From IMG/VR virus record IMGVR_UViG_3300036823_000095, positions 1-41,215 of that record: 41,215 nt of DNA, one strand, 5' to 3'. Positions 1,688 to 35,494 of the stretch are shown here, piece by piece. This DNA comes from a virus. Numbering within the stretch: the first letter of the stretch is position 1; each line of letters starts with the position of its first letter. The translations under genes were made by a program, and so were the position numbers. The notes beneath the pieces were generated by a model. It was not told the origin of the DNA. It ran no database searches and was given only the letters and a program-made list of their open reading frames with translations.

Positions 1688-2125
1688 CTACATGCTAGCG
1701 GTCTGCTGTCGTTCTGCTTGCAGTACGCGCGCCGAAGCGGTGGACTTTTCGAGCGCCAGGGCGGTGCGGTAGACCTTGCGACGAAAGCGCCGCACACGGC
1801 GATAGAACCCGTCGCGGGTGATTTCCTGCGCCGCTGCTGCCTCTTTGACGCTGCGCGCCGGGACAAGGTAGAACAGCAGAAACGCGGTTTTGGCCGGGCC
1901 GTCGTCCTGCGCGCTGATTGCCGTGTTGAAAATAGACAGCACGGGCGACAGGCCAATGTGAGGCGCGGGGCGGATTTTCGCGGGCTGCATGCGCGCGAGG
2001 ATGTTTTTGGGGATTGGTGGCGCTATGAGGCCGTGCTGGCGGTGCCAGTCTGCCCAGCGCAAGCATAGTGCATGCAGTTCGCTATCTGCGAGGTCGTCGG
2101 CGAGCGTGTTACTGGTGCGGCGCAT
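1688..2125 (-). CDS. HTH protein, candidate Q-like late antiterminator/activator
   Basis: 145 residues, ATG at 2125 after an AAGGGGG Shine-Dalgarno. The C-terminal half (about 95-130) has a helix-turn-helix of sigma-region-4 type: a helix with SVKEAAAA, a turn, then EITRDGFYRRVRRFRRKV, as found in several phage late regulators. The gene is last in the parA operon and is followed by a promoter-like sequence and a terminator placed just before the late genes. That position is classic for Q-type antiterminators. The DNA-binding fold is moderately clear; the antitermination role is inferred from position only. Its last codons contain a GCTAGC, here probably coincidental coding sequence. Confidence 0.6.
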   Translation of the reverse strand: MRRTSNTLADDLADSELHALCLRWADWHRQHGLIAPPIPKNILARMQPAKIRPAPHIGLSPVLSIFNTAISAQDDGPAKTAFLLFYLVPARSVKEAAAAQEITRDGFYRRVRRFRRKVYRTALALEKSTASARVLQAERQQTASM

Positions 2126-3679: not shown

Positions 3680-4169
3680 CGTGAGGGTTATGTGTTGTCC
3701 AGCGGCCCAGCCCCATGCGCTCGCTGGCTGCATTTAGCTGTTCCTGTGTCGGGCTGCATGTGGCGCACAGGGCAGACAGCGCCTGCGCGCGCATGTCTAG
3801 CTGTTGTTCGTCCATCGTGACGAATAGCCACGGCTGGCCGTAGGCAATCCATAGCACTATCCAGGCAAGTTGTGCGCCGACCGTCCACCAGCCCCCGCCG
3901 CTGTCGGTGAGGTAGTGCGCGGCCAGCATGAAAAACAGCGGGACCAGCCCGCCTATCTGCGTGCAGTAGAAGCGCCAGCGCGATAGCGTCTGTTCGCCTC
4001 GCATGACGGTATGCACGTAATCGGCCACGGCTTCGGGCGCGGCCAGTGTCGCCACAATGCGGGCGGCCTGCTGCACGCCCATGGCGGCCATGATTGCGCC
4101 GGTTGCCCGCGCATTCCATGGGCGGTTAAGCGTGTCTATCAGGCTATCGAGCAGTTCGCCGGGTTTCAT
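3663..4169 (-). CDS. Membrane protein with two predicted TM helices
   Basis: 168 residues; the ATG at 4169 overlaps the stop of the RHH gene (ATGA), indicating translational coupling. Hydrophobic segments at about 75-92 (GLVPLFFMLAAHYL) and 97-116 (WWTVGAQLAWIVLWIAYG) are separated by a short loop, forming a hairpin in the inner membrane; both flanks are polar. The N-terminal 70 residues contain helical Ala-rich sequence. It is in the parA operon, so superinfection exclusion or membrane anchoring are possible roles, but nothing in the sequence proves either. Confidence 0.7.
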   Translation of the reverse strand: MKPGELLDSLIDTLNRPWNARATGAIMAAMGVQQAARIVATLAAPEAVADYVHTVMRGEQTLSRWRFYCTQIGGLVPLFFMLAAHYLTDSGGGWWTVGAQLAWIVLWIAYGQPWLFVTMDEQQLDMRAQALSALCATCSPTQEQLNAASERMGLGRWTTHNPHDDEQI

Positions 4170-4408
4170 TGCGTCATCAGTTTTTCTTTGGCGGCCATGA
4201 CAAAGTAGGTGGACATGGTGATACCCAGCGCTTCGGCATGCGCCTTGACTTCGGGGACCATTTCCACGGGCACATTGACCATAACCCGTTCGCGCTTTTT
4301 GGCGCTGGTGGCAACCGGCTTTGCGGCCTTGTTGTGCGAGGCGGCCCGCGTTCGGCCTGCGCGCAGGATGGTTGCGGTTTCGTTGGCTTTCTTTGCTGCT
4401 GCTGTCAT
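4166..4408 (-). CDS. Ribbon-helix-helix protein, likely ParA partner / repressor
   Basis: 80 residues. Residues 1-40 are Lys/Ala/Arg-rich and probably flexible. Residues 41-80 fit a ribbon-helix-helix: a beta strand RVMVNVP, helix VEMVPEVKAHAEALG, turn GITMS, helix TYFVMAAKEKLM. A basic flexible tail plus RHH domain is the usual design of ParG/Omega-type centromere-binding proteins, which pair with small ParA ATPases, stimulate them through the tail and repress their own operon. The ATG overlaps the parA stop by 4 bases. RHH partition proteins are known to bind short tandem direct repeats (7-bp for Omega, 11-bp for R1 ParR), so this is my leading candidate for the protein that reads the 11-bp-phased GCTA boxes of this genome. 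That link is inference. Confidence 0.75.
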   Translation of the reverse strand: MTAAAKKANETATILRAGRTRAASHNKAAKPVATSAKKRERVMVNVPVEMVPEVKAHAEALGITMSTYFVMAAKEKLMTQ

Positions 4409-5064
4409 GTCGTGACCTTCAATAGTTCGTTAATGTATGCGTCGATTTCGGCTATAGCTAGCGTGTCGTGCGGCGTGTATTCGTCCACGGCCAGCCCCCG
4501 AGCGCTCGCGCGCCCTACTGCCTTGCGGCGCACGATAGCGGTTTTAAAAACGTTGCCGAACAGTTCCGACTCTTTCGCGTACTTGCGGCATTCGCGGTTG
4601 TCGGCGCTGTCGATTGGGTCGGCGCAGTTCAGCAGCGCCCGGCAGACCAGCGGTTTTTCGCGTGCGGCGTTGATTTCATGCACGACGTTTTCGAGGTCTT
4701 CGAGCGCCCACAATTCATAGATGCCCACGTTGAGCGGGGCAACCAGTACATCAGCCACCAGCAGCGCCGCGCGCAGCGTCTTGCTGTCGCCCCCGCCGCA
4801 GTCAATCACAACATGGTCATACCGCCCGCGCTGCGCGCGGACCTGCGCCCGCATGTCGCCATGGTCGGGGTAAGCGCTCGCCGCAATGGGGGGCAACGCG
4901 CTGATTTCCTCGCGCATGGTCATGCTGCGCATGCCGGTTTTCTGGTCGTCGCCGTCCACAAACCAGGGCGTCAGGCCGCGCATGTGCAGCCCGAGCGCGG
5001 TTTGCACGCTCATGGTTGTCTTACCGGTGCCCCCTTTGGTGTGGGCTACCACGTAGGTTGTCAT
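4405..5064 (-). CDS. parA: ParA-family partition ATPase (small, type Ib)
   Basis: 219 residues from ATG 5064, preceded by AAAAGGGG. The deviant Walker A KGGTGKTT is at residues 10-17 with the signature first lysine, switch I is at about 38-46 (FVDGDDQKTG), and Walker B is VVIDCGGGD at about 86-94. The length is typical of ParF/delta-type ATPases without an N-terminal HTH. Such proteins form gradients on the nucleoid and move plasmid cargo bound by an RHH partner, encoded here directly downstream. The promoter at 5092-5119 holds a GCTAGC box, suggesting autoregulation. Parts of switch I differ from textbook ParA (DGDDQ for D-xDPQ). An upstream Met at 5136 is less likely since it would place the promoter inside the gene. 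Confidence 0.93.
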   Translation of the reverse strand: MTTYVVAHTKGGTGKTTMSVQTALGLHMRGLTPWFVDGDDQKTGMRSMTMREEISALPPIAASAYPDHGDMRAQVRAQRGRYDHVVIDCGGGDSKTLRAALLVADVLVAPLNVGIYELWALEDLENVVHEINAAREKPLVCRALLNCADPIDSADNRECRKYAKESELFGNVFKTAIVRRKAVGRASARGLAVDEYTPHDTLAIAEIDAYINELLKVTT

Positions 5065-5091
5065 TTGAACCCCTTTTCTGTGCTGGTGCCG

Positions 5092-5119
5092 AGTGTAGCA
5101 CAACGCTAGCGAAACGGTT
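5092..5119 (-). promoter_or_regulatory. parA operon promoter with GCTAGC operator
   Basis: On the minus strand the -10 is TACACT (5097-5092). GCTAGC (5105-5110) lies in the spacer, and TAGC units at 5096 and 5107 are exactly 11 bases apart. The -35 (AACCGT) is poor, so the promoter may be weak or need an activator. It is divergent from the plus-strand promoter at 5145. Confidence 0.6.
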
Positions 5120-5144
5120 GCACTCTGAAACATCAAAATACTTG

Positions 5145-5172
5145 TTGCACTCTGCTAGCACTCTGCTACAAT
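5145..5172 (+). promoter_or_regulatory. Strong sigma70-like early promoter with GCTAGC operator
   Basis: TTGCAC (5145-5150), 16 bases, TACAAT (5167-5172). GCTAGC (5154-5159) sits in the spacer and GCTA recurs 11 bases on, overlapping the -10. A partial copy of the -35 segment (GTTGCACTCTG) occurs 27 bases upstream at 5117. Binding of any protein to the boxes would occlude RNA polymerase. Drives 5209-5642. Confidence 0.85.
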
Positions 5173-5208
5173 GTAGTTACTGAAACGCAACGCACAAAGG
5201 GGCAACAC

Positions 5209-5691: not shown

Positions 5692-5703
5692 CGTTCTAAC
5701 CTG

Positions 5704-5731
5704 TTGCATTCTGCTAGCACTGTGCTACAAT
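5704..5731 (+). promoter_or_regulatory. Sigma70-like promoter with GCTAGC operator
   Basis: TTGCAT (5704-5709), 16 bases, TACAAT (5726-5731). GCTAGC at 5713-5718 and GCTA at 5724 are 11 apart, the same arrangement as at 5145. Drives the 5766-7477 genes. Confidence 0.85.
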
Positions 5732-5765
5732 GTAGTCATGGGTTGAACGAAACGGAGCAAACGAA

Positions 5766-6646: not shown

Positions 6647-6710
6647 CCCCAGCCCGCCCCGTGCGGGCATTCTGCTATCATTGTGCAACACACAAACTAA
6701 CGAGGGTTTT

Positions 6711-8436: not shown

Positions 8437-8465
8437 GATTGCCACCTTTCCTGTGTTGCAGCGTG

Positions 8466-9335
8466 CTAGCCCAATGCTGGCATATCGCCACTACGCTGCA
8501 CGCGTTGCGGGACGCCCATAAACAGCGGTAGGGCGGTCTTTTCGGTGATACGTTCGATAATGTCGGCGGCGGCCTGTTCAATCACCTTGTGGGCGCGCAC
8601 CAGATCAAAACCGATTTGCAGCGTGTGACTATGCGGGTCGATGCGGTAGCGCAGGCGCGCGCCGATTTTGTACGTCGGGCCGCCCATGAAAACCGGAATG
8701 CCGAGAAAGAACTGTTCGGGCATTTCGAGCGCGCCATTGCCGCCTGTCGCGTTGATGGTTTCGGCATAGCGCAGTTGGGTTGCGCCGTTCGTCAGGCGCG
8801 TGGCGCTGGAAAATTCCGCCTTGATGGTCGCATGCAGTACCTGCGCCAGTTCGAGCAGTACCGCGCCGGGCGGTTCCGTGGGCGAGCCGCTAAACACGTC
8901 GTCAACATTGCTTTCAACGAATTCCGCAAAGTCGCGTTGCGCCCCACGCTTGCCATTCATTGCCGTCCATATCTGCCATTCGGGCGTGACCATCGGGGCA
9001 TACACGCCGCGCCAGTCTGCCCATGAGGGCTGTTCGCCGCTGGTCGTGTCATCCAGCACGGCCACAAAGCGCACGCCCTGCGTGGGGTTGTTCGTTGCAT
9101 AGATGCGCGTGCGCTCGCCCTTGCGCTCATTGACCCATGCACAGAAGGATTCACAATCGCCGAGTTCGGTCTGGCCGCGTGCGCGCGCCGGGGCCGGTAG
9201 CAGGGCTTCGAGGTCGTGTAATGACCAGTCGGGCGGGACAACCGTATAGGGTGCGCCGAAGTCGCTCACGCGGCGGGCTTCGAGGCCTGCCACGGTGAAA
9301 GAGGCGAGTTCCTGGATAGCGCTGCGGTCAATCAT
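8466..9335 (-). CDS. DUF2303 (YfdQ-like) family protein
   Basis: 289 residues. Features of the family: an N-terminal region starting MIDRSAIQEL, a PPDWSLHDLEAL segment, a YVNERKG-like FCAWVNERKGERTRIYATN, then a conserved alpha/beta core with FAEFVESNVDDVF. Members occur in many phages and prophages beside recombination or replication genes; no biochemical role is firmly established. The ATG overlaps the stop of the 9332 gene (ATGA). On the plus strand its end carries a match to the GCTAGC promoter element at 8456-8483. Confidence 0.8.
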   Translation of the reverse strand: MIDRSAIQELASFTVAGLEARRVSDFGAPYTVVPPDWSLHDLEALLPAPARARGQTELGDCESFCAWVNERKGERTRIYATNNPTQGVRFVAVLDDTTSGEQPSWADWRGVYAPMVTPEWQIWTAMNGKRGAQRDFAEFVESNVDDVFSGSPTEPPGAVLLELAQVLHATIKAEFSSATRLTNGATQLRYAETINATGGNGALEMPEQFFLGIPVFMGGPTYKIGARLRYRIDPHSHTLQIGFDLVRAHKVIEQAAADIIERITEKTALPLFMGVPQRVQRSGDMPALG

Positions 9336-9800: not shown

Positions 9801-9836
9801 TATCGTGCGTTGTGCTGCGCATTGCGCACTGTTGCG

Positions 9837-10091
9837 CTATGCTAGCACACTGCTGACGTTTTGTGCGTCCTGCTGCTGCCACTCGCCGCATAGGTCAATG
9901 TCATACGTCGCAGGCCATTTCGCCAGGTTCGGCATGTCGTCGTCTGAGTCTTTGCACTTGCCGGGGCGCGGCGCATGGCGGGTGCATAACCCTACGCTGC
10001 TTGCAACCTGAAAATACGCGGGCAGGTCGTCGCGCTCAAACCAATGCCGACAGGTCGCGCAGCATTGCTGCGCCGGTAATTCGTCCGTCAT
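9837..10091 (-). CDS. Small cysteine-rich, probable zinc-binding protein
   Basis: 84 residues, ATG at 10091. Cysteines: CCATCRHW near the N-terminus, GLCTRHAP in the middle, GKC, and DLCGEW near the C-terminus. The order CxxCxxW ... GxCxxHxP ... C ... CGEW/F is typical of a family of small phage proteins that probably fold round one zinc. Function unknown. Last gene of the replication operon (12803 to 9837). Its end overlaps a plus-strand match to the GCTAGC promoter element. Confidence 0.75.
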   Translation of the reverse strand: MTDELPAQQCCATCRHWFERDDLPAYFQVASSVGLCTRHAPRPGKCKDSDDDMPNLAKWPATYDIDLCGEWQQQDAQNVSSVLA

Positions 10092-11367: not shown

Positions 11368-12522
11368 TCAAAAGCGCGCCTTGTCGCGCGCCTGTCGAGC
11401 CGCCGCCAGTGCTGCCGCCAGACTTTGCTCGCCTACAGCCGTGACCTGTTTCGCCTCGCCGTTGATGCGGTTGATTTCTTCGAGCGCGACATTGCGGGCC
11501 ATGGGCACACTACCGATAGGGGTTTCCCCTCGTTTCTGGCCCTCTTTGCGCGCATTGTCTATCACGGCTTTAAAGTAATTGAACGAATCTATGGGGTTGG
11601 GGCTGTTCTGCGCGATGCCTACGGCGTGCGTGGCTTCGGCTGGGGTCACGTTGCGCACCGTGCAGAAATTGCGCACGGCGGCTGGGTCGGCGTTTATGCC
11701 CATCTGGCCGCAGCAGCGTATCAGCGCGTGCGCGGCGGCTTCGGTGTCGGCGGGGGGCTTGGCAGGCGCGGGCGGTTTTGACGTTGCCTTGTCTTCGTCC
11801 TCGCCGGGGTTGCTGGGGCCGTCGTGTTGCGTTGCGGTATCCACAGGGTGCGCAGGGGGGTTTTGAAGTTCTTTTCCCTGTATACGGGTTTGCGGGTTTC
11901 CCTCAAACCACTTGCGGGATTCCCTCAAACCGTGAAACTTTTCGCGGGTCTGTTCCACGGTTTTGGGGTTTCCCTCAAACCGGGCCGCCAGCCCTTTAAA
12001 ATCAACGCCCATGGCGTCGCCGTACCCATGCGTGAGGGCCGTAATCGCCTCATGGTCTAGCTGGTAGGTCGTCACGTTGCAGCGGCCCACCTTGCGGCGC
12101 ACCAAGCGCAGGCGGTGCATGACCGTTTGCACGCGGCGGAACTGTTCTACGGATATGCCGAGGTCGGCGGCCCATTCCGGCGCGGTCTTCGTCCACCAGC
12201 CGCCGCCGCCGTTCAGACGCCACGCGAACGCACTACAGAAGACGCCAAAGCCCAGCGGCTGTTCGGTGGCCGCCGCGATTGCTTCGGCTTCATGCAGGTT
12301 AAACGTGCGTATGCCCCCCGCGCGCCACGCCTGATAGCCCGCCATGGTCTGCGGGTCCGATAGCGGGCCGTCGTCGGGGTCTTCGTCTTCGTCGGGTTCG
12401 GGTACAGCGGGCAGGGCTTCGGGCAGGTCAAACGTGAGCGCGAGCCAGTGCGAGCGCTGCGCCGCCGTCATGGCCGCAAGCTGGTTGCGGTCGTCGTCGC
12501 TGATTGCAAGGGTCGTCGTCAT
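11368..12522 (-). CDS. Winged-helix replication initiator (O-like)
   Basis: 384 residues; ATG at 12522 (GTGAGGG upstream) overlaps the previous stop. An acidic linker lies at 40-58. A winged-helix domain at about 95-157 contains GWWTKTAPEWAADLGISVEQ, then a recognition helix FRRVQTVMHRLRL and a wing VRRKVGRCNVTTYQL. A Pro/Lys-rich linker (225-262) leads to a C-terminal helical domain (about 265-335, IRCCGQMGINADPAAVRNF) that could bind host helicase or loader. This matches the plan of phage O-type initiators. The gene contains 22-bp iterons at 11889-11982, encoding the FEGNP-K/Q-T repeats (182-188, 206-212), as lambda carries its origin in O. A GTATCCACA at 11837-11845 resembles a DnaA box. 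No phage helicase is found, so host DnaB is probably recruited. Confidence 0.65.
   Translation of the reverse strand: MTTTLAISDDDRNQLAAMTAAQRSHWLALTFDLPEALPAVPEPDEDEDPDDGPLSDPQTMAGYQAWRAGGIRTFNLHEAEAIAAATEQPLGFGVFCSAFAWRLNGGGGWWTKTAPEWAADLGISVEQFRRVQTVMHRLRLVRRKVGRCNVTTYQLDHEAITALTHGYGDAMGVDFKGLAARFEGNPKTVEQTREKFHGLRESRKWFEGNPQTRIQGKELQNPPAHPVDTATQHDGPSNPGEDEDKATSKPPAPAKPPADTEAAAHALIRCCGQMGINADPAAVRNFCTVRNVTPAEATHAVGIAQNSPNPIDSFNYFKAVIDNARKEGQKRGETPIGSVPMARNVALEEINRINGEAKQVTAVGEQSLAAALAAARQARDKARF
11889..11982. repeat. Iterons: candidate replication origin
   Basis: Three copies of a 22-bp repeat at 11889-11910, 11911-11932 (directly tandem) and 11961-11982. Each contains TTCCCTCAAACC and agrees with the first at 19 of 22 positions. 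Two copies hold the 15-bp inverted repeat GGTTTCCCTCAAACC. A degenerate unit (GCGGGT...) occupies the space between copies two and three. They lie in the replication initiator gene, with a DnaA-box-like GTATCCACA 44 bases away. Likely binding sites of the winged-helix initiator. Confidence 0.7.
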
Positions 12523-13018: not shown

Positions 13019-13216
13019 TTTGTGCAGCGCAAACGTTTAAAACGCTCACAACCCGCACTGGCGCTCATTTTTCACCTGGTTAGCCTGGTTTTGCAATACT
13101 TTCATCGCGGAAAGTATGAGAATAATTTACTTGCAAAATCCGCCAGAATCGGCATTCAATCGGCATCTATTCAACCCGCATAATCATTATTCCGGGTGAA
13201 TTACGCCCTGCTGCTG
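13019..13216. other. Non-coding control region with inverted and direct repeats
   Basis: About 200 bases without a gene. It contains ATACTTTC/GAAAGTAT (13096-13117, 8-bp arms, 6-base gap), a direct repeat of ATCGGCAT (about 13148-13167), a compound palindrome with outer arms ACCCG/CGGGT and inner ATAATCATTAT (13174-13197), and AT-richer stretches than the rest of the genome. The segment ATACTTTC also occurs in the ncRNA terminator loop (about 12990). It may be an operator or part of a secondary origin. Confidence 0.6.
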
Positions 13217-13244
13217 TTGCACTGTGCTAGCAGTGTGCTATACT
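13217..13244 (+). promoter_or_regulatory. Sigma70-like promoter with GCTAGC operator
   Basis: TTGCAC (13217-13222), 16 bases, TATACT (13239-13244). GCTAGC at 13226 and GCTA at 13237, 11 apart. Drives the 13282-14006 genes. Confidence 0.85.
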
Positions 13245-13623: not shown

Positions 13624-14006
13624 TGCCCATGATTGCCGGTTATTACTATCTGCATGCCAATGGCGCGGTTCTCTATAAGAGGGCCGCGCCTGGTGTCATT
13701 ACGGATTTTGAAAATTCCGACCTGGTTAAATGCTGGTGGCCGGTTGAACCCGACGACCGGCGCGGCGCGTGGCGCATCCTGATTGAAGCGAGCGCACGCG
13801 GGGCCACGCCCGAAACCATCGCCCAGCACGCCCACCTATGGCACTGCGACAGCCCCGACGCGTACCGCTACGCCCTGCGCGAGGGTATCGAGCTACGCGA
13901 GGATGCGGGCGAGTTCGTCGCCACACTCAACGGCTGCGAGGGCAGGGGCGCACACGCGCTAACCGCGTTCGTCGCCCTGTTCAATGCGATGCATCCCGCG
14001 CATTAG
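13623..14006 (+). CDS. Hypothetical protein, 127 aa
   Basis: ATG at 13623 overlaps the upstream TAA by one base (TAATG). A beta-rich start (IAGYYYLHANGAVLYKRAAPGVITDFENSDLVKCWWPVEPDDR) is followed by helices (TPETIAQHAHLWHCDSPDAYRYALREGIELRE). No family recognised; the compact alpha/beta composition fits a soluble cytoplasmic protein of the early unit. Confidence 0.7.
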   Translation: MPMIAGYYYLHANGAVLYKRAAPGVITDFENSDLVKCWWPVEPDDRRGAWRILIEASARGATPETIAQHAHLWHCDSPDAYRYALREGIELREDAGEFVATLNGCEGRGAHALTAFVALFNAMHPAH

Positions 14007-14008
14007 TG

Positions 14009-14061
14009 CTAGCGTTCCACTGAGAAAGTGCTAGCACTTCGCTAGCGCTTCGGCTATACTG
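14009..14061 (+). promoter_or_regulatory. Promoter with multiple phased GCTAGC boxes
   Basis: GCTAGC at 14009, 14031 and 14042 with intervals of 22 and 11, plus GCTA at 14054 (12 on). -35 TAGCAC (14033-14038), 17 bases, -10 TATACT (14056-14061). The -35 itself overlaps a box. Drives the exonuclease at 14094. The weaker -35 suggests a regulated promoter. Confidence 0.8.
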
Positions 14062-14093
14062 TTTCCACAGTCAACCGAACGGAGTAATGCAGC

Positions 14094-15011: not shown

Positions 15012-15025
15012 GGGCGTGCGCTATG

Positions 15026-15053
15026 CAGCATTCTGCTAGCAGTGTGCTAATAT
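15026..15053 (+). promoter_or_regulatory. Promoter with GCTAGC operator before recT
   Basis: CAGCAT (15026-15031), 16 bases, TAATAT (15048-15053). GCTAGC (15035), GCTA (15046) and GCTG (15057) are at 11-base steps. Same arrangement as other early promoters but a weaker -35. Confidence 0.75.
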
Positions 15054-15082: not shown

Positions 15083-16231
15083 ATGTCACGCACCGAAGAA
15101 CTGAAACAGAAAATGCAGGCCCGCAACGGCGTAACAGGGCAGGGGGGGGCGAACGGCAACGGCGAGGCGCTGGCCCCGCTCACGCAGTCACAACAGGCTG
15201 ACGCGCTGGCTAAATTCCTGTCGTCGCCTGCGGTCATGGCGCAAATCATGAAAGCCCTGCCGCGTCATCTGACAGCGGACAGGCTGATTCGTATTGCGAC
15301 AACCGAGCTACGCAAAAACCCCAAGCTGGCACTCTGCACGCCCCAATCATTCCTTGGTGCAGTCATCCAGTGCGCGCAACTTGGGCTAGAGCCGGGCAGT
15401 GCGCTGGGCCATGTCTACCTGGTGCCGTTCAAACGCAATTTCAAGCGCGGCAACGAATGGTTCAGCGAAATGATTACGACCGTGATAGTGGGCTATCGCG
15501 GCATGATTGACCTTGCCCGCCGCAGCGGTCAGATTGAGTCTATCGAGGCGTGGCCGGTGTACCTGGGCGACAGGTTCGAATGTCTGCTGGGGCTGGAACC
15601 GTCGCTGGTGCATGCGCCGGATTGGGAGAACCCGAACCGCACGAACCCCGACATGCTGCGCTTCGTGTACGCGGTCGCCCGCCTTAAAGACGGTGGCCGC
15701 CAGTTCGCGGTTATGTCGCGCGCCGAAGTCGAAATGATTCGCAACCGGACTTTCGACAAAAACAAGACGAGCGCCGACGACCGCGCGAAAAGCCCATGGG
15801 CGACGGACTTCGAGCAAATGGCATTGAAGACGGTTATTCGTCGTCTGTTCAAGCATCTGCCAGTGTCTATCGAAATGGTTATCGCCGACGCGCTGCGCCG
15901 CCCGGATAGCGACGAACTGCAACTGGCCGAAACTGCCGCGCTCATGCTTGAGGATAACGCCAGCCCCACGCTTGATATCCCGATGCACGAAGTACCTGAA
16001 ATGGTTGTGCCGGGCGAGCAGGGCACGGGAGAGGGCGAGCCGGAAAGCCTGCAAACGGACTTTGACGGCCCAGGGCAGACGCTGGGCGAGCGTATCGAGG
16101 CCGCGCTACTCAATGCAAAATCGCGTGACGTGCTGGACGTGGCCGCCGACGAGATACGCGAACTGGCCGCGCCTGCCGAGCGCGCGAAACTTGAGGCCCT
16201 GTACAGGGAGCGCCGCGAAGTGCTGCAATAA
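15083..16231 (+). CDS. recT: RecT single-strand annealing protein
   Basis: 382 residues, ATG at 15083 (GAGG upstream). Starts MSRTEELKQKMQARNG. The RecT core includes KNPKLALCTPQSFLGAVIQCAQLGLEPG and SALGHVYLVPFKR, followed by VIVGYRGMIDLARRSG and later FEQMALKTVIRRLFKHLP, all hallmarks of RecT/RedB-type annealers. The C-terminal ~90 residues are variable and acidic. It forms rings on single-stranded DNA and anneals the ends made by YqaJ. The 3' end overlaps the 11-bp GCT array at 16222. Confidence 0.95.
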   Translation: MSRTEELKQKMQARNGVTGQGGANGNGEALAPLTQSQQADALAKFLSSPAVMAQIMKALPRHLTADRLIRIATTELRKNPKLALCTPQSFLGAVIQCAQLGLEPGSALGHVYLVPFKRNFKRGNEWFSEMITTVIVGYRGMIDLARRSGQIESIEAWPVYLGDRFECLLGLEPSLVHAPDWENPNRTNPDMLRFVYAVARLKDGGRQFAVMSRAEVEMIRNRTFDKNKTSADDRAKSPWATDFEQMALKTVIRRLFKHLPVSIEMVIADALRRPDSDELQLAETAALMLEDNASPTLDIPMHEVPEMVVPGEQGTGEGEPESLQTDFDGPGQTLGERIEAALLNAKSRDVLDVAADEIRELAAPAERAKLEALYRERREVLQ

Positions 16232-16284
16232 TGCTATATTTGTGCTGCCGGGCCGCTAGTGTTCTGCTAGCGGCCTGCTGTCAT
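16222..16284 (+). promoter_or_regulatory. Six-unit 11-bp-phased GCT-R array and promoter
   Basis: GCTG 16222, GCTA 16233, GCTG 16244, GCTA 16255, GCTA 16266 (within GCTAGC) and GCTG 16277 are exactly 11 bases apart, five consecutive intervals. Five of the six are preceded by T. A promoter fits -35 TAGTGT (16257-16262), 16 bases, -10 TGTCAT (16279-16284). The first unit lies in the last codons of recT. This is the longest array in the genome. Confidence 0.8.
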
Positions 16285-17767: not shown

Positions 17768-17877
17768 GCGCCGAGGAAATAGAGCGCGACAAGCGCCGCA
17801 TGCGCCTGACTGTCATTGTCCTTTACACAATCGGACTACCGTTAATCTTTGTCCTTCTATGGTTTGCACTTAGCTAG
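17731..17877 (+). CDS. Small single-TM protein, 48 aa
   Basis: ATG at 17731, stop TAG (17875-17877) inside GCTAGC. Polar basic N-terminus (MQRKPFAPIVLLSAEEIERDKRRMR) then one transmembrane segment (LTVIVLYTIGLPLIFVLLWFALS), likely N-in. It overlaps the upstream gene's end in another frame. The weak Shine-Dalgarno (GGA) lowers confidence. Function unknown; small membrane proteins of phages may act in lysis timing or exclusion. Confidence 0.5.
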   Translation: MQRKPFAPIVLLSAEEIERDKRRMRLTVIVLYTIGLPLIFVLLWFALS

Positions 17878-17893
17878 CACTATGCCGCACTTT
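17864..17893 (+). promoter_or_regulatory. Weak promoter with GCTAGC box before the HTH gene
   Basis: TTGCAC (17864-17869) with GCTAGC at 17873-17878 in the same relation as the other promoters, but the -10 position is poor (CACTTT at 17888-17893 with an 18-base spacer is best). The next gene starts at 17933. It could be a self-regulating operator. Confidence 0.4.
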
Positions 17894-17932: not shown

Positions 17933-19042
17933 ATGCTTGATACTTTCACGCCCGAACAGAAAGCCTCAATTCTCGCCCAAATCATGAAAGAGGAAAGCAG
18001 CGGGGCGAGCCTGCGAGAATGCTGCCGCGCACAGGGCATTACGCTGCAAACGTTCCTTGACTGGAAAGCAAGCGCGAGGCGTCATAACCAGTTCGATACC
18101 CTGCATTTAAATGGCATTCACCCCGAGCGCAAACCCTCACGGTTCCGGCATGAAAAGCCAAAGACAGCACTACAGATAGCACTCGAAACCGCCCAGCGCC
18201 GCAGTTATCCCGAAGACAACCCCGAAGACGTGGCCGCCGTGCGAGCCATGGAAAGAGGCGAGCCAGTACCGACAGCAACGCCGCCAGACATGCCGCCAGA
18301 AACGCCCCCAGCGGCCCCGCCGCCTGCGGTTGACGTGCCAATAGCCGCAGCGCCGCCCGAGGCCGCCAGCGAGCCGGAAAACCCGCCCCCGCCGCAGATT
18401 GAACCCTCATACCCGATATATGACGCAGTACGCGGCATGCTTGAGCAGCAACCCGAACCGGATAAAGAGCCGGTCAATTCAATTATCAAAGACGAGGTTA
18501 TAACCGTGCCAAAATCTGAAAACGTCATCAAACCGCGTGGCATAGCTGCCACCATGCACAACGCTATGCCGTGGCTCGCCGCTGTCGAGCGGAAAACAGA
18601 AAAGGCAATGGGGCCTAAGCCCGCGAGCAAAGCGCCGGGCTATTACGCCTGGATTGCGCATCGAAAGGAATTAATGACGCCCGAGCAGAAAGCGGAAATT
18701 GAAACTTATTTTGGTGTCAACCGGCGCGGCGCTCGCGCGACGAAACCCGATGCGCCGACAGCCAGGCGCGCACCGAAGCCCGCACAGGTAGAGGAACAGC
18801 GCGAAATGGTGGCCGCCCGCGTGACCAATGGGCCGCGCAAGGTGCCCGCCTCGCCGCGTGTCAATGAACTGGTCAACCAGCATGCAGAGCTATCCGCACA
18901 GATTGCAGACCATCAGCAATTGGGGCTGGTGCGCGCACATGCGCCGCGTGAGCATGGGGGGCTGGTGACAGAGAATGAACGACTCAAACGCGCACTCACG
19001 GCGCTGACTATGGAAAACCTGCAACTGCGCGGGCTGCTTTAA
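17933..19042 (+). CDS. HTH / proline-rich / coiled-coil protein, candidate regulator
   Basis: 369 residues from ATG 17933 (GAGAGG upstream; an earlier Met at 17849 is rejected as lacking a ribosome site). N-terminal transposase-like helix-turn-helix: FTPEQKASILAQIMKEE, then SLRECCRAQGITLQTFLDWKA. A Pro/Ala-rich linker lies at about 120-165. A conserved-looking central block (KPRGIAATMHNAMPWLAAVERK, GYYAWIAHRKELMTPEQKAEIE) is followed by a basic stretch and a C-terminal leucine-zipper coiled coil (LVNQHAELSAQIADHQQ, ENERLKRALTALTMENLQLRGLL). The design of DNA-binding head, flexible linker and dimerising tail fits a transcription regulator. It is preceded by a GCTAGC box, so it is an alternative reader of the boxes. 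Confidence 0.6.
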   Translation: MLDTFTPEQKASILAQIMKEESSGASLRECCRAQGITLQTFLDWKASARRHNQFDTLHLNGIHPERKPSRFRHEKPKTALQIALETAQRRSYPEDNPEDVAAVRAMERGEPVPTATPPDMPPETPPAAPPPAVDVPIAAAPPEAASEPENPPPPQIEPSYPIYDAVRGMLEQQPEPDKEPVNSIIKDEVITVPKSENVIKPRGIAATMHNAMPWLAAVERKTEKAMGPKPASKAPGYYAWIAHRKELMTPEQKAEIETYFGVNRRGARATKPDAPTARRAPKPAQVEEQREMVAARVTNGPRKVPASPRVNELVNQHAELSAQIADHQQLGLVRAHAPREHGGLVTENERLKRALTALTMENLQLRGLL

Positions 19043-23603: not shown

Positions 23604-23650
23604 GCTATTATGCTAGCGTTGTGATAACTGTGTGCTAGCGTGGTGCTAGC
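23604..23650. promoter_or_regulatory. Phased GCTAGC cluster between collar gene and opposite ORF
   Basis: GCTA at 23604, GCTAGC at 23612, 23634 and 23645; the last three plus GATA at 23623 fall on an 11-base lattice. A minus-strand promoter fits TAGCAC (23648-23643), 16 bases, TATCAC (23626-23621), ahead of the collar and fibre genes. A tiny plus-strand ORF starts at 23676. So the boxes may control receptor-binding genes independently of the rest of the late unit. Confidence 0.7.
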
Positions 23651-23675
23651 CTTTTACTGTCTAAATGAGGTATTA

Positions 23676-35297: not shown

Positions 35298-35301
35298 TGT
35301 G

Positions 35302-35338
35302 TAGCACTCCTATAGCATTGTGCTAGTCATTCGCTAGC
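35302..35338 (-). promoter_or_regulatory. Phased GCTA/TAGC array and promoter before the transglycosylase gene
   Basis: TAGC at 35302, 35313, TAGT 35324 and TAGC 35335 (the last within GCTAGC 35333-35338) at 11-base steps. A minus-strand promoter fits TAGCGA (35336-35331), 16 bases, TATAGG (35314-35309). It lies in the 44-base gap between the small ORF at 35342 and the 35297 start, in the middle of the late block. Confidence 0.7.
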
Positions 35339-35341
35339 GTT

Positions 35342-35494
35342 TTACTGCAACATTACCAGCGTTCTGCCATCAGAAAGACGGCATGCGGGCGGCCCTTTGT
35401 GGATGCGTGCGCCGTGGCCGCCAGCCACGCGCAGACTGACGCCAGGCGGGCTGTTCTTTGCCCAAACGTCGGTAATGAAAACGTTCTGCGGCAA
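35342..35494 (-). CDS. Possible 50-aa protein with TTG start
   Basis: The frame is open upstream, but a TTG at 35494 preceded by GAGG with five-base spacing is the only start with a ribosome site after the end of the 35509 gene. Sequence: PQNVFITDVWAKNSPPGVSLRVAGGHGARIH and a short tail. The frame overlaps no other gene in this interval. An ATG at 35695 would run through the 35509 gene and is rejected. Function unknown. Confidence 0.4.
   Translation of the reverse strand: MPQNVFITDVWAKNSPPGVSLRVAGGHGARIHKGPPACRLSDGRTLVMLQ

Follow-up and report, generated by a model that had tools for sequence, protein, structure and literature searches.

ParG of plasmid TP228, the ribbon-helix-helix (RHH) partner of the ParF ATPase, is known to autoregulate only its own operon. 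In the plasmid prophage N15 the centromere sites lie in regulatory regions; unlike the genome described here, N15 has an HTH-type ParB (SopB), long inverted repeats, four sites and a separate repressor. In cluster A mycobacteriophages with parABS, the repressor is a protein distinct from ParB, and each of the two has sites of its own. The N15 plasmid prophage carries several separate centromere sites (PMC7205306), and in some cluster A relatives parABS replaces the integrase (PMC7157519). L5-type mycobacteriophages possess many dispersed short repressor sites, the stoperators (PMC9283540). Because the parS arrays of Omega, the RHH-type ParB of pSM19035, overlap with several promoters, the protein serves both partition and copy-number/par regulation; full ParA activation in this system needs at least four contiguous repeats (PMC9499535). 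The KS14 prophage has been obtained as a plasmid from lysogens (PMC3091744).

Here we analysed a viral record of 41,215 bp (the whole stretch is referred to as the window). Its first and last 127 bases are identical, as in a circular, complete assembly. Since an overlap of equal length recurs in several unrelated records of the study, it is most likely an assembler overlap of a circular or circularly permuted genome and not a biological end repeat. The virion genes (terminase, an 883-aa portal, major head protein, ejection protein and tail fibres) are located on the minus strand, with portal and ejection proteins of podovirus type, and recE and recT belong to a plus-strand early block. Two sister phages, G001 (41,038 bp) and G002 (39,693 bp), are collinear with the window. 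The preliminary description had recognised neither an integrase nor a CI-like repressor, and in agreement with this the profiles for tyrosine integrase (PF00589), serine recombinase (PF00239) and HTH_3 (PF01381) gave no match in the window or the two sisters. The window hence shows the combination typical of phage-plasmids, a circular complete genome with virion and par genes and without an integrase, and lacks the HTH_3 domain of a classical CI/HTH_3 repressor.

The preliminary description had also proposed a deviant-Walker ATPase overlapping an RHH gene with a basic N-terminus, on the ParF/ParG or delta/Omega plan. Our data confirm this cassette:

4405–5064, minus strand: parA, deviant-Walker partition ATPase of 219 aa, ParF-like, type Ib
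4166–4408, minus strand: rhh, 80-aa ribbon-helix-helix protein with a basic N-terminal tail, whose modelled fold matches CopG/Arc/AmrZ

The parA product carries the Walker A motif KGGTGKTT at residue 10 and matches Pfam AAA_31 (9e-13) and PHROG 164, ‘ParA-like partition protein’ (2e-36). The solved chains nearest to it in phmmer are TP228 ParF (4dzz), the best match, and a ParA (5u1g). Three sequence features of a type-Ib cassette are present: a small deviant-Walker ParA without N-terminal HTH domain, an RHH partner whose N-terminus is basic and flexible and whose gene comes immediately after parA (parA, 5064–4405, and rhh, 4408–4166, overlap by 4 nt), and short repeated sites upstream of parA. 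Five more minus-strand genes follow the pair. ParA is 73–75% identical to its counterparts in both sisters and every ParA motif is kept, which indicates that it is under selection. Among GenBank phages the closest ParA proteins are those of KS14 and FLC5 (42–44% identity; KS14 gp40, 44%). Small plasmids encode ParA proteins of the same 42–44% identity, the one from Advenella being followed by an annotated RHH protein. Megablast of the sequence against phage and plasmid records gave no match.

At the sequence level the RHH match is weak (CopG_antitoxin, 0.0037, under the cut-off). In an AlphaFold2 model, built with 36 relatives from the fetched loci, a strand region precedes two confident helices (residues 48–61 and 65–79; pLDDT >90). 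The PDB entries that match this model best are RHH proteins (MazE6, CopG, Arc, NikA and AmrZ), with ParG also among the matches at a weak score. No PDB match fell under E 0.001, because the domain comprises only about 45 residues. Residues R41, M43 and N45 are predicted to face the DNA; this triad is identical in both sisters, while the RHH proteins are otherwise 52–58% identical. The N-terminal tail of most RHH proteins of the family (L008–L085) contains a conserved FIxxAPDA motif, possibly a ParA-contact segment. The window clade lacks it and has ETATILRAGR in its place.

The boxes upstream of parA share the core TGCTAGCA, repeat with an 11-bp phase and occur at the parA promoter and at most early promoters. 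In the window they are located as follows:

1691–1724, minus strand: three units in phase where the Q-like gene ends, late-operon side; clusters likewise placed in both sisters
5076–5135, minus strand: parA promoter with phased boxes CGCTAGCGTTG and TGCTACACT; autoregulation predicted
5143–5175, plus strand: boxes within the divergent early promoter TTGCAC-N16-TACAAT of gene 5209
5703–5735, plus strand: boxes within the promoter TTGCAT-N16-TACAAT of gene 5766
6668–6690, plus strand: box TTCTGCTATCATTGTG before gene 6710
8464–8490, minus strand: phased boxes upstream of gene 8436–8011; counterpart box in both sisters
9835–9863, minus strand: box GTGTGCTAGCATAGCG upstream of gene 9688–9332, inside the end of gene 10091–9837
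13216–13244, plus strand: boxes in the promoter TTGCAC-N16-TATACT of gene 13282; kept in both sisters
14006–14062, plus strand: box array in the recE promoter; kept in both sisters
15025–15050, plus strand: boxes in the recT promoter; found in one of two sisters
16229–16280, plus strand: boxes before gene 16299; kept in both sisters
17862–17885, plus strand: box before HTH gene 17936; kept in both sisters
23606–23655, minus strand: four in-phase units upstream of tail-collar gene 23587–22772; boxes there in both sisters
35298–35345, minus strand: four units in 11-bp phase upstream of head-region gene 35297–34782; candidate larger partition site

The 11-bp phase claimed in the preliminary description stood a word-distance test that needs no motif training: GCTA pairs 11 bp apart number nine in the window (0.37 expected), 11 in G001 (0.27 expected) and five in G002 (0.17 expected). 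Lag autocorrelation in a 60-nt window gave z of about 1 for the window clade, hence the use of word distances there. The placement at early promoters needs to be widened, as boxes also precede the tail-collar and head-region genes. A 16-column motif trained on the three sisters reads WnTGCTAGCAnW, with TG again at +11. The window has 22 strong boxes, and 14 of them fall within the 6.8% of intergenic DNA (binomial 8e-12). In-phase clusters, most of them of 1–4 units, number 15 in the window and 16 and 8 in the sisters (about 1–1.6 expected) and are spread genome-wide. Boxes overlap the -35/-10 elements of early promoters and of parA’s own promoter. Boxes precede the orthologous parA/5209, 8011, 13282, recE, 16299, 17936 and collar genes in all three phages, and recT in two of the three. 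A single site that recurs many times at early promoters and is kept in related phages is a feature of global repressors with dispersed operators. The virion genes tested within the late operon (MCP, scaffold, portal and TerL) are not preceded by boxes. An interpretation of the boxes as generic sigma-70 elements was rejected on array geometry.

Which protein binds the boxes was addressed by comparison. A scan for relatives yielded 80 viral ParA loci, and an RHH-like gene adjoins parA in nearly all of the 50 inspected. At most inspected ParA-RHH loci, repeats in the DNA upstream of parA have 11 bp, or a multiple of it, as their strongest period, and 11-bp phased palindromic boxes are usual in this position across the wider family, KS14 included. 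The core differs with the RHH strand: SLT/TMT occurs with TGATATCA, SLG/SxD with CGATATCG, FxVG with GGATATCC, TMLY with ATACGTAT, and MVN of the window clade with TGCTAGCA. At RHH residue -2, T goes with TGATATCA in all three arrays, G or D with CGATATCG/GGATATCC (C/G-GATATC-G/C) in ten out of ten, and N, in the window clade, with TGCTAGCA. The association of T versus G/D with the core is significant (Fisher 0.0035), a value that is inflated by shared ancestry among the about 13 dereplicated arrays. Only dereplicated arrays above the shuffled score were counted, and the palindrome-chain score is near null at many loci. The association points to the RHH protein as the binder, although it is not decisive; on the comparison as a whole, the RHH protein is supported as the best candidate. 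The RHH family here offers one strand position that tracks an operator base. A very regular arrangement was seen in L058 (2016–2960) and in G008/G009, where eight ATACGTAT-like boxes precede parA and a second array lies beyond rhh; these arrays are a clean model centromere for the ParA-RHH family.

Judged by the sequences compared, the dispersal of the boxes is specific to the window clade. The clear arrays of 16 other ParA-RHH phages keep to the par locus, where they are found upstream of parA, in the stretch between parA and rhh, or immediately past rhh. G013 has four clusters outside the parA promoter (1.1 expected), of which one is close to the par locus, and G008 and G009 show scattered clusters with a short core that makes chance clusters common. 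An HTH_3 match was obtained for 10 of the 13 other ParA-RHH phages tested (seven over the cut-off) versus none of the three phages of the window clade; the three other phages that lack a match are KS14-like, and in KS14 itself a repressor is annotated. In the distant relatives G022 and G023 a Q-like gene is kept (43–46% identity), in G023 together with head and tail genes. Neither ParA nor RHH was detected in these two, and their box counts do not exceed chance (0 and 2 versus 19–29), a comparison that is partly built in, as the motif was trained on the sisters; no palindrome repeated at one spacing was found in the stretches examined. Among viral contigs without ParA (L088, L090–L093) no box pattern resembles a dispersed regulon: G006 has boxes inside a coding gene, G005 a single promoter-like match, and G004 an unrelated cluster near an integrase. 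The latter (L090, 5170–5285) consists of about seven boxes resembling GCTAGCA, some of them in 11-bp phase. It occupies an intergenic region close to a tyrosine integrase, and no ParA or RHH was found on this 8.9-kb fragment.

Compared with the known systems, KS14 and FLC5 resemble the window in their ParA, the adjoining RHH gene (with a disordered tail in KS14) and the 11-bp phased boxes upstream of parA. They differ by a P2-like virion, a core TTGATATCAA restricted to the par locus, and separate annotated repressor and Arc-like genes, KS14 also by a serine recombinase; the window has neither P2-like virion genes nor the FIxxAPDA-type tail motif. TP228 ParF/ParG shares the type-Ib plan with an RHH partner and provides the nearest solved ParA, but it belongs to a plasmid and has another box. 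Delta/Omega of pSM19035 likewise employs one RHH protein with sites overlapping several promoters; unlike the window, it uses 7-bp non-palindromic heptads in arrays of 7–10 units at three genes, resides on a plasmid and has no phage early regulon. N15 Sop (IR1–4) resembles the presumed plasmid prophage in its multiple separate sites, and stoperators resemble the boxes as many dispersed short sites.

We infer binding, repression, partition and the plasmid state, and consider it probable that the window represents a phage-plasmid in which a type-Ib centromere-binding protein doubles as early-gene repressor. The podovirus would then probably persist as a circular plasmid prophage instead of integrating, with the rhh product predicted to be both centromere-binding protein and repressor. 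RHH dimers would bind the palindromic 8-bp cores (TGCTAGCA), one per DNA turn of 11 bp and on one face of the DNA. At roughly ten promoters the bound protein would cover -35 and -10, shutting off recE, recT and other early genes as the lysogeny repressor and autoregulating parA-rhh. ParA would pull on RHH at one or more larger arrays and so segregate the circular prophage copies. The weakest step is the centromere function proposed for the scattered clusters: pSM19035 requires four contiguous repeats, a number that most of the clusters do not reach; partition may be carried out by some clusters, or by the clusters together. As a whole, the reading of the preliminary description is partly supported.

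A stronger version, which we regard as slightly short of an even bet, makes RHH the sole lysogeny repressor and the centromere and the immunity operator one dispersed site. Prophage segregation and incompatibility would then depend, like superinfection immunity and induction, on the level of a single protein, and ParA could influence induction if it remodelled the repressor or competed for it. Should the main reading hold, plasmid partition and the immunity switch have become one in a phage, a centromere-binding protein controls early promoters besides its own operon where no classical repressor was found, and plasmid incompatibility and superinfection immunity are predicted to coincide. KS14-type relatives suggest a centromere-binding protein that regulates its own operon, and the phages could be arranged in a testable evolutionary series that leads from par-confined boxes with HTH_3 to boxes that are dispersed and not accompanied by it. 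For each half there are precedents (Omega, N15), and type-Ib partition of phage-plasmids is already known. In the open-licence literature we found no description of a centromere and an early-regulon operator merged in one dispersed site.

Alternatively, ParA-RHH might only partition and autoregulate, the dispersed boxes being operators of another repressor that shares the box of the parA promoter. Other DNA-binding candidates are encoded (notably the HTH_Tnp_1 protein 17936–19042, a possible repressor by the comparison, and the Q-like protein 1688–2125), and in KS14 and FLC5 the annotated repressor is separate from the par cassette. Still, compact 8-bp palindromes in 11-bp phase upstream of parA are common to RHH-cassette phages with different other regulators, the window clade has no HTH_3 gene, and the Q-like protein is ruled out as the binder by G022 and G023, which carry its gene without boxes. 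We consider this scenario unlikely, albeit the most serious competitor. A strictly lytic phage, in which ParA-RHH is a regulatory relic or a timing switch and RHH represses early genes late without any lysogeny, appears less probable still. In its favour, the phage was found in viral contigs only, a genome-collection scan for host prophages found no host genome with a close relative, and par comprises the only recognised lysogeny genes. Against this stand the selection on ParA evident from its motifs and its identity in the sisters, and the fact that ParA in this family is a plasmid and plasmid-prophage gene (PMC3091744).

Least plausible, and hardly to be expected, is a role of the boxes not as operators but as activator sites or as a dedicated promoter consensus (e.g. 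for a host factor). In at least three promoters the units do form TTGCA and TAnnnT at a fixed 16-bp spacing. The arrays, however, reach beyond the core promoter, their distance to the start codon varies, and a general promoter consensus should not be absent from the RHH-less relatives G022 and G023.

The HTH-like protein encoded at 1688–2125, just before the late operon, is highly conserved (71–79% identity in the sisters, 43–46% in distant relatives) and possibly a Q-like late regulator; its model, with a pLDDT of 56, was too poor for a fold assignment. A record of 80,256 bp (G024, the record of L149/L153) contains two copies of the Q-like locus plus a tyrosine integrase and may be a joined or chimeric assembly. 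The last gene of the early block, 17936–19042, encodes a putative regulator of 368 aa, in which an HTH_Tnp_1 domain forms the N-terminal part and the long middle part is rich in proline. A candidate replication gene was also annotated:

11368–12522, minus strand: replication-initiator-like gene, function assigned from its sequence by eye

This gene had no Pfam or PHROG match. It holds three 23-nt iteron-like repeats (GGTTTGCGGGTTTCCCTCAAACC) at 11,887–11,981, a possible lambda-O-like origin; the origin of lambda likewise lies within its O gene.
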